DNA from: Eubacterium maltosivorans
GTDB lineage: Bacteria > Bacillota > Clostridia > Eubacteriales > Eubacteriaceae
DNA: 64,000 bases
Direction: 5' to 3'
Assembly (NCBI RefSeq): GCF_002441855.2
Contig: NZ_CP029487.1
Coordinates: forward strand, 558,001 to 622,000
Part shown: positions 30,045 to 35,687 of the stretch, in pieces
Position numbering within the stretch: the first letter of the stretch is position 1
How the letters are laid out: every line of letters begins with the position of its first letter
The notes under the pieces: generated by a model
What the model was told of the DNA's origin: nothing
The model's database searches: none
Seen by the model: only the letters and a program-made list of their open reading frames with translations
Position numbers and translations under genes: made by a program

Positions 30045-30138
30045 AAAAAGTGCGCCTAACAGGATGTTTCAAAAGCTACGGTCTACCAAGGGATAGGAGA
30101 GTATCGCGCTCATTGAAAATGTTAGGTGCACCTTTTTT
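30045..30138. other. Structured 90-base intergenic element of unknown function
   Basis: A 12-bp stem, GTGCGCCTAACA (30050-30061) with TGTTAGGTGCAC (30120-30131, one G.T pair), is flanked by an A tract on the left and six T on the right. Inside, TTTCAA (30067-30072) pairs with TTGAAA (30113-30118), and GATA/TATC form a small hairpin. The arms are symmetric enough to fold on both strands. I do not recognise it as a known riboswitch or terminator. Confidence 0.6.
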
Positions 30139-30339
30139 AATATATCAGATATTCGGGGCTTTTGCAAGAGCGGTTAAGCTAAGGTTTAGATATGTTATAG
30201 AGTATACCCTTTTATGGACTGCCGATATCTTTTTTATTCTGATGTTTAGAACCCGGGTCTTCGGGTATAAATATAAAAGAACACACATACCTCTTACTTA
30301 AATCAATTAATCTCTCCCCCAATTTACTCTCCCCAAGAG

Positions 30340-30371
30340 AAGCCCCTGATCTTCGGATCAGGGGCTTTTTT
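30340..30371 (+). terminator. UUCG-capped terminator without an identified gene
   Basis: A perfect 12-bp stem (AAGCCCCTGATC 30340-30351, TTCG loop, GATCAGGGGCTT 30356-30367) is followed by T on the plus strand only. No plus-strand coding gene precedes it in the gap, so it may end an unrecognised RNA or be a relic. Confidence 0.85.
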
Positions 30372-30429
30372 GCTGTAATTCGCTAAGATGCGGCAGTGAA
30401 ACTTGTGAAGAATATTCGTTCTCAAACAC

Positions 30430-30600
30430 TTGATTTTTGAAACGAATGTTTGTATAATAAGAGTGTCATCACTTTTCTTTGAGGGGATAATCGCGATAAA
30501 AAGACAGGGCAGAGTGGTCTTGCACAGTGACCAAAGCGAGGTCCGTGCATCGGTTGAAGCGCTCCATGCTCCTGAGCTGTACCGATTGTCCCCCCTCTAT
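30430..30600 (+). ncRNA. Candidate structured small RNA with its own promoter
   Basis: A promoter TTGATT (30430-30435)-N17-TATAAT (30453-30458) faces a region that folds into a rod. GAGGGGATAATCG (30481-30493) pairs with 30583-30597 over 13 bp, with a 2-base CC bulge. Large internal bulges follow, then an inner hairpin TGCAC..GACC/GGTC..GTGCA (30521-30549), and GCTC/GAGC (30561-30577) forms a small side hairpin. A ~145-base rod with a central bubble resembles 6S RNA in layout, but this is only a structural analogy. No convincing open reading frame with a ribosome site lies in it. Confidence 0.45.
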
Positions 30601-30697
30601 GGTTTTTCATTATCTGTTATCTGTGGCGCCTGCCTCTTTCCCGTCTCTTAAAAAACAAAAAATCGAATACAGTATTTTTCAAAACACAAAAATGATC

Positions 30698-32722
30698 TCA
30701 TGGTTTTATAAAGTTCGCAGCTTTCACAATAAGGCTGATGACAGCCTCGATACCCAGGGCGCCGCTGTCCAGAACCAGCTGGTAATTAGCAGGAATGCCC
30801 CAGACCTTTCCGGTGTAACGGCGGTAGTGGGCAGCCCGATCCCGATCTTTCTTTTTGGCGGCGGTAAGGGCGTTTTCAGGCGCAAGGCCGTATTCGGTAA
30901 CAATACGGTCCTTTTTAAAGGCAGTGCCAGCGTGGACGAATACCCGAAGGCAGTACGGGTCGTCCCTTAGAATATCATCGGCGCAGCGTCCGATAATGAC
31001 GCAGGATTCTCTCTGCGCCAGCGCTTTGATGACACGTCTCTGGGCTGAAAAGAGGCTGTCCAGAACACTCATCTTATTGGCACAGAAGAGGTTTTGCTCA
31101 AAGGCTTCATAATTTTTTTCAGAGAAGTCATATAACAGGCTTTGAGCGGTGAGCTCTTCCTCATGATTTGCGATGTAATCTGGGGAAAACCCGCTTTCTC
31201 TTGCCTCCAGAGCTAAGAGCTCTTTATCGTAGACTGCGATGCCCAGGGCCTGGCCTACCCGCTGTCCGATTTCAAGCCCTCCGCTGCCGTACTGCCGGGA
31301 AATGGTAATAATCAGATGGTGAGTGGAGGACTGTGTGGCAGCTGCCGCTTCCACGGGAGCGGCCTTTTGGGCCCGGGGTCTCATAAACAGGAGCACCACC
31401 ACCACACAGATAAACACGACTGCCGCAGTGGCGAGGAAGGAAGCCTGTATGCCACGAAGATCACCGCCAACTGTGGAAACAGAGGACATGACCGTCACAA
31501 AAGCCGCGCTCATGATCGCGCCGCCTACCTGCCGCACCGTGTTCATAATCGCTGTTCCGTGGGCGACCTCAACGTCGGCCAGAGCGTTGACCGACCAGGT
31601 CATGAGCGGCTGGAGCAGGGCGACGATGCCCAGCATGCGCAGCCCGTAAAATACTGTGATAAATAACAGTGAGGTGGATTCGCCTATAAAGGAAAGGGCC
31701 AGAGTGCCGCCTCCCAGAAAGGCAAGCCCTGCCACAGTCAGCAGGAAAGGTCCTCTCTTATCCAGGATCCTGCCTGTCACGGGATTCAGAAAGGCCAGAA
31801 ACAGCGCGCCTGGCAGCATGGTAAGCCCGGAAACTGTGGCGGAAAAGCCCCGAAGCGACTGGATGTAAATGGGCAGAAGCGTGGAGACCGACAGCATGGA
31901 GCCATAGGCGAAGACCAGCAAAACGGTGCCGAAAGTGAAATCCCGGTTTTCAAAGACGCTGAGATTCAGGAGCGGGTCGGAGATTTTAAACTGGCGCAGC
32001 GTAAAGAGAACAATGCAGACAGCGCCTGCCAGAAGCGGCGCCCAGGTCAGCCAGGAGGTAAAGCCATAGTTGCCAAAATCTGTGGCGGCGGTCAGGAGGC
32101 CGCTGAAGCCAAGTGTGGAAAGGACGACAGAGAGGATATCCAGCCGGCTGTCTGAGGACATGGACTCGTCGGGCATCTTGAGCAGGGCCAGCAGAATGCT
32201 GAGCAGCGAGAGGGCGCACATAATATAAAAGATCATCCGCCAGCCAAAGGCGTCCACGACCCATCCTGCAAAGGTGGGGCCAAAAGCCGGAGCAAAGCCA
32301 GTGGTCAGGCCCACAATGCCCATAATGGCGCCGCGGCGGTCGGGCTCATACAGGCGAAAGGTGACCACCTGAGGCAGCGGGAGAAGAATTCCGGCGCCCA
32401 GAGCCTGGATGATCCGTCCTGCCAGAAGCAGAAAGAAGCTGTTCGCGCAGGCAGCGGTGATGCTGCCTGCCAGAAAAAGAAAAATGGAGACAAGGTAAAG
32501 CTTTTTGGCTGAAAATTTTTCCATCAGGTAGCCTGTGCAGGGAATCATTACCCCTAAAAAAAGCAGATAAGCGGTGGTCAGCCACTGGCCTATCCCAGCG
32601 CCAATGTCAAATTCGACCATGATACGCGGCAGAGAAGCAGTCATGACCGTCTGATTAAGTGAGCTGATAAAGGCGCCGATGATAATGACCCCGATGATGA
32701 GTTTTCGGTTTTTAGACTGCAT
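30698..32722 (-). CDS. DHA2-type MFS exporter fused to a cytidylate-kinase-like domain
   Basis: The 674-residue protein has two parts. Residues ~1-455 form a 14-helix drug:proton antiporter of the EmrB/DHA2 type (LNQTVMTASLPRIMVEF in helix 1, GRIIQALGAGILLPLPQ near the helix-4 motif). After a short Ala-rich linker, residues ~470-674 match the cytidylate-kinase-2 family. IITISRQYGSGGLEIGQRV forms the P-loop-like start and VYDKELL the next conserved strand, followed by the lid-like KKKDRDRAAHYRRYTG stretch. It overlaps the upstream TetR gene by 11 bp, so the pair is a regulated efflux operon. What the cytosolic kinase domain does for the exporter is unknown. Confidence 0.85.
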   Translation of the reverse strand: MQSKNRKLIIGVIIIGAFISSLNQTVMTASLPRIMVEFDIGAGIGQWLTTAYLLFLGVMIPCTGYLMEKFSAKKLYLVSIFLFLAGSITAACANSFFLLLAGRIIQALGAGILLPLPQVVTFRLYEPDRRGAIMGIVGLTTGFAPAFGPTFAGWVVDAFGWRMIFYIMCALSLLSILLALLKMPDESMSSDSRLDILSVVLSTLGFSGLLTAATDFGNYGFTSWLTWAPLLAGAVCIVLFTLRQFKISDPLLNLSVFENRDFTFGTVLLVFAYGSMLSVSTLLPIYIQSLRGFSATVSGLTMLPGALFLAFLNPVTGRILDKRGPFLLTVAGLAFLGGGTLALSFIGESTSLLFITVFYGLRMLGIVALLQPLMTWSVNALADVEVAHGTAIMNTVRQVGGAIMSAAFVTVMSSVSTVGGDLRGIQASFLATAAVVFICVVVVLLFMRPRAQKAAPVEAAAATQSSTHHLIITISRQYGSGGLEIGQRVGQALGIAVYDKELLALEARESGFSPDYIANHEEELTAQSLLYDFSEKNYEAFEQNLFCANKMSVLDSLFSAQRRVIKALAQRESCVIIGRCADDILRDDPYCLRVFVHAGTAFKKDRIVTEYGLAPENALTAAKKKDRDRAAHYRRYTGKVWGIPANYQLVLDSGALGIEAVISLIVKAANFIKP

Positions 32723-33290
32723 TGTCAGAGCCCCCTGTTTTAAAGAAATAACCAGTCAGCAGCTTTTGAGCTGTGGACAGCAACGCTTCTGCGGGAAGGG
32801 AGGCTCCATTCAGAATCCAGGTCCGCAGGATGCTGAAGGTGATGCCGGAAAGGCCGGAAAGGATAAAAGGAACGTCCTCCGCGCATTCTGAAAGTGAGGC
32901 TGCCAGCGTCTGAAATTCGTTCTCGAAGCAGGCGTTGTTTGCCATCAGGAAAAGATAGCCGAGGCTGTTGCGGAAAAGCAGGGTCAGGAACTGGCTGTGG
33001 TCGTGCCAGTAAGTGAAATAGTCTGCCAGCGCCTCCAGAGGCGTTTGGAAAAGTCCCTCGGGCAGCTGATCCGCATACATGGAAAACAGTCTGTCCAGAG
33101 AATAGGTAAGGATATCCTCCTTTTGGGAAAAGTTTGTGTAAAAGGTCTGGCGCGAAACGCCGGCCTTTTCTGTAATTTCAGAGATTGTAATGGCCGGGAG
33201 ACTTTTTTTCTCCAGCAGCTCTGCAAAGGCCAGCGCCAGTGCCCTTTTGGAGCGGATAGCAGCGGGATTTTCGTATTTTTTTTCGTTCAT
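32712..33290 (-). CDS. TetR-family regulator of the MFS-kinase gene
   Basis: The 192-residue protein starts at the ATG giving MNEKKYENP; AGAGGTGA precedes it, and the in-frame GTG 12 bp upstream is part of that site. The N-terminal helix-turn-helix reads ITISEITEKAGVSRQTFYTNFSQKEDIL-like (about residues 32-59), and the C-terminal helical domain resembles the YbjK/TetR_C_33 type. It overlaps the exporter gene and should repress the operon until an exported compound binds. An inverted repeat lies over its own -35 box. Confidence 0.92.
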   Translation of the reverse strand: MNEKKYENPAAIRSKRALALAFAELLEKKSLPAITISEITEKAGVSRQTFYTNFSQKEDILTYSLDRLFSMYADQLPEGLFQTPLEALADYFTYWHDHSQFLTLLFRNSLGYLFLMANNACFENEFQTLAASLSECAEDVPFILSGLSGITFSILRTWILNGASLPAEALLSTAQKLLTGYFFKTGGSDNAV

Positions 33291-33316
33291 ATTACAGGTC
33301 ACCTCTTTCTTACTTT

Positions 33317-33352
33317 ACTATAACACATTGCAGAAAGTTTTACAATAGTAAA
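33317..33352 (-). promoter_or_regulatory. TetR promoter with overlapping operator
   Basis: On the minus strand TTGTAA (33345-33340), a 17-bp spacer and TATAGT (33322-33317) form the promoter. The inverted repeat TTTAC-AATA-GTAAA (33339-33352) covers the -35 box, as expected for autorepression. Confidence 0.65.
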
Positions 33353-33433
33353 TTTTTTTACAAATGTCTAACCTATAAAGGCGATCAATTTTAAATAAAG
33401 CAATATAAAATATTTTTATGTCACAGGCAAAAG

Positions 33434-33524: not shown

Positions 33525-35687
33525 ATGGATAATCAGGCAGAAAAAAGAAAGATACTCATCGTTGACGACATGGAGCTGAACCGCGCGCTGCTGTGCGAGA
33601 TGTTCCAGACAAAATATACGATATACGAAGCTGAAAACGGTGCGCAGGCACTGGAAATTCTGGAGCGGGAGAGCGAAAATATCGCGGTTGTGCTTTTGGA
33701 TCTCATCATGCCAGTGCTCGACGGCTTTGGCGTTTTGCAGGAAATGGAGCGTATGAGCCTGACTGGGCGGATACCGGTCATCATGATCACTGCTGAGAAC
33801 AGCGAGGGCGTCATGCAGCGGGGCTATGAGATGGGGGCCGCCGATATTGTCACCAAGCCCTTTAACCCCAATATTGTCATTCAGCGTGTCCACAACATTA
33901 TCGAGCAGTATACCCAGAAGCTCCACCTGCGCCAGCTGGTGGCTGAGCAGACAAGGGCGCTGCGGGAGCAGGCGGAGAAAATGCGTGAAAACAGCGCGCA
34001 GATGATCGATACGCTCAGCAGCATCATTGAATTTAAGAATACCGAATCTGTGTCTCATATACACAACGTGCGTGTGATTACCAGACTGCTTCTGGCTGAG
34101 TTCGCAAAGGGCCACAGCGAGTACGGTTTGTCCGACTCCCTGATTGAGATGATCTCCGAGGCGGCGGCCATGCACGATATCGGTAAGGTAGCCATACCGG
34201 ACAATATCCTCAACAAGCCCGGCCGACTGACCGATGAGGAATTTGAGATCATGAAGACCCATACCTCCCGGGGCAGCGAGATTTTGATGGAGCTGTCTGG
34301 TGTCCAGGATCTGGCTTACTATGACTACTGCTATGATATCTGCCGCCACCACCATGAGCGGTGGGACGGAGGCGGCTACCCTGATGGCCTGGCGGGCAAT
34401 GAGATCTCCATCTGGGCCCAGGCGGTGTCGCTGGCTGACGTTTATGACGCCCTGACCAGTAAACGGGTTTACAAGGACGCCTACACCCATGAAACCGCTG
34501 TCCAGATGATTTTAGACGGCGAGTGCGGGGTGTTTAACCCGCAGCTGATCGAGTGCTTTCTGACAGCGCTGCCTGAGCTTAACCGTTCCATGAAAGGCGG
34601 CGAAATGCTGACGTCGACGGTTACCGCGACCGGTGAGGTAACCATTCCGGAAAAGAAGAAAAAAGAGACTCATGGCGATCTTTCCAGCCGGACCCTATAC
34701 CTGTTAGAACAGGAGCGTCAGAAATATCAGATACTGTCTGAGCTTTCGGATGAGCTCATTTTTGAATATGACCTGCGCACAGATAAGCTGGTCTTTTCTG
34801 ACCGTTTTCAGATATTGACCGGAAAAGACCCGGTGTTCCCACAGATCAGCAGGATATTATCGGATGCGTCGCTGGTCAACGCCGAGGACTACAGCCGCCT
34901 TTACAGGATGCTTGAGCGCGTTACGCCGAACAGGCCGACCTGCAAGGCAGAGCTGCGCATCAATCTGGATGGCCAGGGGTTCCAATGGTACCAGGTATAC
35001 CTTTATCCCATCTGGGATATGGAGTTTGAGCCGGTATGCGTGAGCTACATCGGTAAGCTCATCAATGTGGAGGAGACCAAGCAGCGCAATCTGATGCTTA
35101 AAAAGGAAGCGGAGAGCGATCCGCTCACGGGGCTGTTAAACCAGCGGGCCATGCGGGAGCAGACGATTCTGGCGTTAAAGGACCGTCGTGTGAAGAATGC
35201 GGCCCTGTGCTTTGCCGACGTCGATAACTTTAAATCGGTCAATGATGAGCGCGGCCATCTGTTTGGGGATATGGTACTCAAGGAGGTGGCGGAGATCCTG
35301 ACCAGCAGCGTGCGCCATACCGATCTGGTAGGCCGTGTGGGCGGTGATGAGTTCCTGATTCTGTTCCACGATATCGTCGACCAGCAGGATATAGAAAGGC
35401 GTGTTGCGGCCATCTGTAAAAAGCTGAACAAACGCTTTAAAAGCTATGGCATTACCGGAAGTTTTGGCATTTCCCGTTATCCTCAGGATGGGGAGGATTT
35501 TGACATTCTTCTCCAGAAGGCGGATCAGGCCCTTTACCACTCCAAGGATCTGGGGAAAAACCAGTATAAGGTTTACGATGTCAGCTGCGCCAACCGGCCG
35601 TTCCGCTCTTCCCTGACCAGGGTGGATAACTATAACGAAAAAATCGAGGAGATGGCCAGGGAGTTAAAAAACAGAACAAGCAGTTGA
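33525..35687 (+). CDS. Response regulator with HD-GYP and GGDEF domains (cyclic-di-GMP turnover)
   Basis: The 720-residue cytosolic protein has a receiver domain (about residues 8-125, phospho-Asp in VVLLDLIMP near 59). A helical linker follows, then an HD-GYP phosphodiesterase domain (about 165-350) with HDIGK, HHERWDGGGYPDG and DVYDALTSKR intact. A PAS-like segment (about 405-535) leads to a GGDEF domain with intact GGDEF (about 606) and the inhibitory RxxD site (RHTD) five residues before it. Both the synthesis and the degradation of cyclic-di-GMP are therefore possible. No kinase gene is adjacent, so its phosphodonor is elsewhere. A terminator follows at once. Confidence 0.93.
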   Translation: MDNQAEKRKILIVDDMELNRALLCEMFQTKYTIYEAENGAQALEILERESENIAVVLLDLIMPVLDGFGVLQEMERMSLTGRIPVIMITAENSEGVMQRGYEMGAADIVTKPFNPNIVIQRVHNIIEQYTQKLHLRQLVAEQTRALREQAEKMRENSAQMIDTLSSIIEFKNTESVSHIHNVRVITRLLLAEFAKGHSEYGLSDSLIEMISEAAAMHDIGKVAIPDNILNKPGRLTDEEFEIMKTHTSRGSEILMELSGVQDLAYYDYCYDICRHHHERWDGGGYPDGLAGNEISIWAQAVSLADVYDALTSKRVYKDAYTHETAVQMILDGECGVFNPQLIECFLTALPELNRSMKGGEMLTSTVTATGEVTIPEKKKKETHGDLSSRTLYLLEQERQKYQILSELSDELIFEYDLRTDKLVFSDRFQILTGKDPVFPQISRILSDASLVNAEDYSRLYRMLERVTPNRPTCKAELRINLDGQGFQWYQVYLYPIWDMEFEPVCVSYIGKLINVEETKQRNLMLKKEAESDPLTGLLNQRAMREQTILALKDRRVKNAALCFADVDNFKSVNDERGHLFGDMVLKEVAEILTSSVRHTDLVGRVGGDEFLILFHDIVDQQDIERRVAAICKKLNKRFKSYGITGSFGISRYPQDGEDFDILLQKADQALYHSKDLGKNQYKVYDVSCANRPFRSSLTRVDNYNEKIEEMARELKNRTSS

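Follow-up and report, generated by a model that had tools for sequence, protein, structure and literature searches.

Fusion of an MdrT-like DHA2 exporter to a Cytidylate_kin2 (PF13189) domain in Eubacterium maltosivorans, and the recurrent coupling of this kinase-like family to transporters

The multidrug transporter MdrT of Listeria monocytogenes exports bile acid as well as c-di-AMP, and its TetR repressor is BrtA (PMC10294697, PMC6108528). For a Lactococcus pump with 45% identity to MdrT, a lowering of c-di-AMP via export has been reported (PMC6108528). A different arrangement is found in the macrolide operon mph(A)-mrx-mphR, in which a phosphotransferase gene is combined with a repressor gene and one further gene (PMC11215539). 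Among proteins of the kinase-like family Cytidylate_kin2 (PF13189), the solved structures nearest in sequence to the domain described here are 3hdt from Clostridium symbiosum, deposited as a putative kinase, and 3fdi from Eubacterium ventriosum, deposited as an uncharacterized protein. Here we describe a gene that encodes both an MdrT-like exporter and a PF13189 domain, located in a 64,000-nucleotide stretch of DNA from Eubacterium maltosivorans (contig NZ_CP029487.1, positions 558,001–622,000; the window). Both parts belong to known families, and no description of the coupling of PF13189 to this or other transporters was found in the open-access literature.

The features of the locus are listed in Table 1. 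Like MdrT, the pump is a DHA2 exporter of the major facilitator superfamily (MFS) with a TetR gene before it in the same direction, but MdrT stops after its last helix and lacks a kinase domain, whereas the window pump continues into PF13189. The domain shares its fold with 3hdt and 3fdi; these are standalone proteins, in contrast to the window domain, which is fused behind an exporter and carries a leucine after the glycine loop.

Table 1. Features of the exporter–Cytidylate_kin2 locus (positions in the window)
Feature	Position	Strand	Evidence
Fusion gene, DHA2 MFS exporter and Cytidylate_kin2 domain, 674 aa	30698..32722	-	Open frame, translation, Pfam, NCBIfam
14-helix DHA2 exporter half, MdrT-like, residues 1-450	31373..32722	-	MFS_1 14-403; TIGR00711; 41% identity to MdrT; 14 model helices
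Ala-rich flexible linker without internal start codon, residues 451-467	31322..31372	-	Codon listing; pLDDT under 50 at 453-466
Cytidylate_kin2 (PF13189) domain, residues 471-674	30701..31312	-	Pfam E 9e-46; nearest solved structures 3hdt, 3fdi by sequence and fold
ISRQYGSGG, P-loop position with Gly at the Walker A lysine, residues 474-482	31277..31303	-	Profile alignment with host CMP kinase; family counts
TetR-family regulator gene, overlaps fusion gene start by 11 nt	32712..33302	-	ORF list; TetR_N above cut-off
Cassette upstream region, promoter-like sites and short inverted repeats, candidate operator	33303..33428	-	Consensus scans only
TetR-exporter cassette, approximate extent absent at the syntenic spot of congeners	30703..33428	.	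blastn against L208, L209 and ORFs there

The coordinates of the gene in the initial annotation (30698–32722) hold, but its strand has to be corrected: on the minus strand the 674-codon frame is uninterrupted, and a plus-strand reading was dropped, as its translation is closed by many stops. The Pfam domains of the protein are MFS_1 at residues 14–403 (E 5e-54) and Cytidylate_kin2 at residues 471–653 (E 9e-46). Both matches are far above the curated cut-offs, and the two-domain assignment is therefore not due to chance. The AlphaFold2 model of the whole protein comprises 14 long helices, a disordered segment (453–466, pLDDT under 50) and a P-loop kinase fold. Thus, the single frame, the profile matches of Pfam and NCBIfam and the structural model bear out the initial description of a 14-helix DHA2 exporter that runs on in-frame into the PF13189 domain. 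As the number of helices in the model is even and the tether disordered, the domain should be located on the cytosolic side of the membrane.

The joint between the two halves encodes AQKAAPVEAAAATQSST, which is rich in Ala; neither a start codon that precedes the domain nor a remnant of a stop codon is present there, and the host genome was assembled as one contig of 4.34 Mb. A frameshift artefact, named at the outset as a finding that would undo the fusion, is therefore unlikely, and the fusion of the exporter and the PF13189 domain is real.

The exporter half scored 275.8 bits against the DHA2/EmrB model TIGR00711 (cut-off 230.2 bits; NCBIfam), and the 14 long helices that AlphaFold2 predicts for it agree with the 14-helix topology of EmrB-type pumps. 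The best matches in the PDB are EmrB, EfpA and QacA. Listeria MdrT, annotated as a cholic acid efflux transporter, is among the close annotated matches (41% identity over 415 aa). The nucleoside analogue that was originally suggested as cargo has no direct support; bile acid and c-di-AMP are the substrates of the annotated pump that is closest to it.

The overlap between the TetR gene and the exporter gene was found as described previously (11 nt, with TetR_N above its cut-off). The inducibility that was deduced from it is probable: TetR control of the fusion gene, and hence induction, would follow from the gene layout. The TetR protein matches BrtA over the DNA-binding helix-turn-helix part only (22% over 63 residues). 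Because of this restricted match, and with 41% identity between the pumps and the cassette absent from congeners, the two systems are, judging from their sequences, alike in layout and not orthologous.

The domain belongs to PF13189, as its ISRQYGSGG start had indicated: the match of 156.7 bits (gathering cut-off 28) covers positions 1–174 of the 176 positions of the profile. The predicted fold of the domain superimposes on 3hdt with a Z-score of 23.1 (rmsd 1.4 over 164 residues, 31% identity) and on 3fdi with a Z-score of 22.5 (27% identity). CMP kinases follow (Z 12–14), and then gluconate and shikimate kinases; chloramphenicol phosphotransferase appears at rank 48. The domain thus has the fold and the overall motif order of a canonical CMP kinase (Cmk), but not its GK[ST] P-loop, and the host carries a canonical cmk gene elsewhere. 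In a profile alignment, GPAGAGKST of the host CMP kinase is aligned with SRQYGSGGLE of the domain, which places Gly482 at the position of the lysine and Leu483 at that of the Ser/Thr. The domain therefore departs from the Walker A pattern GxxxxGK[ST] of active CMP and nucleoside kinases. A Walker A match in one other locus (L159) was dismissed as a chance occurrence, out of register.

The glycine at the position of the canonical P-loop lysine is a property of the family. It is invariant in the aligned PF13189 members (70/70), and almost all of the 131 domains in a wider set share the motif R-x-aromatic-G-S-G-G. The next position holds a basic residue (Arg, His or Lys) in 123 of 130 domains and Leu in the window copy. 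Polar residues of the domain that are conserved family-wide are R476, Y498, D499, R579, R629, W641, N646 and Y647. All six columns that are invariant in the 70-row alignment are retained in the window domain, and for this reason its sequence does not look degenerate or decaying. Judged by sequence, the domain is a PF13189 member that lacks the signature of an active P-loop kinase. Loss of the nucleotide-binding residues had been put forward as evidence against a kinase; the canonical lysine is indeed missing throughout the family, but the invariant residues of the family itself are kept.

The whole protein was used as a query against 81 relatives, 391 genomes of the class and, from the family that contains the closest pumps, 71 genomes; these sets partly overlap and together amount to about 540 genomes or fewer. 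A full-length match to the fusion protein was present in its own genome only, and no further MFS-PF13189 fusion was found among these genomes, in line with the earlier remark that such a fusion is unusual for exporters. A frame of 687 aa in G028 was considered as a second MFS fusion and rejected, as it is a biotin carboxylase fusion. A plasmid-borne horizontal copy was also dropped, since no plasmid record covered 80% of the fusion protein.

Two congeners (G002 and G003) have a GPP34-type gene at the syntenic position, where the window has the TetR and fusion genes, with flanks that are 78–90% identical; the presence of the cassette thus varies within the genus. The gene in G002 (L209:3455-4117, plus strand) is a bacterial member of the GPP34 (Golgi phosphoprotein 3) family. 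In the same congener, a transposase-like gene splits the gene for an HD-GYP/GGDEF response regulator (L209:4298-7950, plus strand), which is intact in the window (33525–35687). Beside the variable spot, positions 30045–30611 contain no obvious gene and are 78% identical to congener DNA, possibly representing a conserved regulatory or RNA element.

PF13189 domains are coupled to transporters in several other arrangements. The set of 131 domains includes 17 that are fused to DUF6198-type and 4 that are fused to MATE proteins (examples checked with Pfam); in these proteins, too, the module follows a polytopic membrane part at the C-terminus, but this membrane half is unrelated to the window exporter. 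The host genome itself encodes a DUF6198 (YczE-like) membrane protein fused to PF13189, and another of its Cytidylate_kin2 genes starts directly behind an ABC exporter gene (L037:2-2228, plus strand). A third PF13189 type is located behind a MATE gene in congeners. The two components of the window fusion are found next to each other in three genomes of the same family (G033, G035 and G063), where an MdrT-like MFS gene is followed by a Cytidylate_kin2 gene. In contrast to the window, the genes are separate in these clusters, a MarR gene precedes the pair in G033 and G035 in place of TetR, and the MFS halves are 33% identical. The MFS protein of G033 is 43% identical to MdrT, and the MFS and kinase frames of this genome overlap.

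Unfused PF13189 copies lie beside a MATE gene in 20 cases in the 131-domain set, 15 of them directly behind it. Among unfused loci in named genomes, MatE (Pfam) was found in 16 of 59 immediate upstream genes, versus 3/54 at the second upstream position and 4/60 downstream; a separate count of PF13189 neighbours versus other genes gave p = 1e-4. The named-genome scan yielded 80 loci that were chosen by similarity to a query alignment containing MATE and DUF6198 fusions, so that frequencies derived from them are biased upwards and do not apply family-wide; a comparison of positions within one locus suffers far less from this bias. Among relatives that were chosen without regard to context, 10 of the 54 strong PF13189 matches are in frames of 434–687 residues. 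Seven of these long frames were examined, and correspond to five DUF6198-type fusions, the window MFS fusion and one biotin carboxylase fusion.

Several loci deserve separate mention. The biotin carboxylase fusion (G028, L036:4031-6091, minus strand) lies in a locus with lactam-utilisation/5-oxoprolinase-type genes. A Lachnospiraceae contig (L128:870-4978) contains a MATE gene with a kinase gene behind it, adjoining a MATE-kinase fusion on the other strand. In seven Lachnospiraceae loci (L158, L160, L165 and similar), a standalone Cytidylate_kin2 gene is situated behind a pseudouridine synthase gene, and signal peptidase II is encoded further upstream in six Lachnospiraceae Cytidylate_kin2 loci, a housekeeping context.

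In a tree of the 131 domains, the genomic contexts cluster, and MATE fusion requires more than one change. The window domain groups with DUF6198-fused domains in this quick tree (support 90) and is unresolved in a second tree, so that an origin from DUF6198 fusions is supported by one of the two trees. A test rejected a clade made up solely of the window domain and the MFS-adjacent kinases (p 4e-4), but not a clade enlarged by two rows (p 0.24). As the enlarged clade survives this test, the pairing with MFS pumps may have arisen once or twice.

Based on these results, we tentatively favor a role of the PF13189 domain as a tethered sensor or regulator, an accessory of an inducible, TetR-controlled pump. 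In this model, an MdrT-like DHA2 antiporter would carry a module with a P-loop kinase fold on a flexible tether at its cytosolic C-terminus, and similar modules would assist unrelated exporters either as a separate partner gene or as a fused domain. The module would most likely bind a cytosolic nucleotide or phosphometabolite and adjust the activity of the pump, instead of acting as a classical ATP-dependent kinase; both ligand binding and regulation of the pump through the module are inferred, while the results themselves extend to the anatomy of the protein and its genomic association. A sensor or regulator is favored because unlike transporters and a biotin carboxylase have the module in common and the catalytic lysine is missing family-wide; for the former reason, a general ligand-sensing role also fits better than a single cargo-specific reaction. 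On the other hand, the conserved polar residues appear to resemble an active site, and the folds nearest to the predicted one are those of small-molecule kinases, so that catalysis through an unusual P-loop is conceivable. In addition, the standalone copies that adjoin housekeeping genes, such as that for pseudouridine synthase, speak against a role confined to pumps.

It is also possible, if somewhat doubtful, that a toxic small molecule is the substrate that the domain phosphorylates, and that the pump joined to it expels either the product or what is left of the drug, which would result in modify-and-export resistance within one protein. The similarity of the fold to CMP, shikimate and gluconate kinases and, lower down, to chloramphenicol phosphotransferase would be in agreement with this, as would the retention of the charged residues that are invariant in PF13189 and the existence of operons such as mph(A)-mrx-mphR, where a phosphotransferase gene accompanies that of a repressor and one other (PMC11215539). 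However, the whole family is devoid of the Walker A lysine, the range of partners (MATE, DUF6198, ABC, MFS and biotin carboxylase) is hard to reconcile with one cargo, and we found no PF13189 member with a known substrate or proven phosphotransfer. The kinase acting on the cargo that was envisaged in the initial annotation is consistent with the CMP kinase-like fold, but is weakened by the glycine at the lysine position and the leucine that follows it.

By analogy with MdrT, the pump could export c-di-AMP or another nucleotide, which the domain would bind or process. We consider this unlikely, despite the 41% identity of the MFS half to an exporter of both c-di-AMP and bile acid, the reported effect of the related Lactococcus pump on c-di-AMP (PMC6108528) and the nucleotide-kinase fold of the domain. 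An identity of 41% does not fix the substrate, the MATE and DUF6198 partners are not known as c-di-AMP exporters, and most MdrT-like pumps lack such a domain.

It is more improbable still that neighbouring genes were joined without consequence, with a domain that has no function or serves only to keep the pump stable or anchored. That there is a single MFS fusion in about 540 genomes, that Leu stands where a basic residue usually follows the glycine loop, and that the frames of the separate genes of G033 overlap, so that they would be easily joined, could all be explained in this way, but the domain is complete, retains all family-invariant residues and has repeatedly been fused to other transporters. 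Finally, an assembly or sequencing error that joined two genes is highly improbable, since the fusion, although backed by one genome only, has a linker that is Ala-rich like a natural tether and free of start codons and stop remnants, and its exporter and kinase-like halves are each continuous at full length.

The coupling of PF13189 to several unrelated pumps suggests a shared role in efflux, and this general association merits more attention than the single fusion gene. As a bolder generalization, which we put forward with considerable reservation, PF13189 may serve bacterial efflux in general as an accessory module that has so far gone unrecognised: its P-loop kinase fold without the lysine would sense or modify small molecules, and would be connected to MATE, MFS, ABC and DUF6198 membrane proteins in operons or by fusion. 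The window protein lends itself to studies of this kind, as its module is permanently joined to one partner. Should the domain prove to regulate or assist export, this would give access to the function of a large kinase-like family, for which we found none assigned, and provide insight into the post-translational control of drug pumps.
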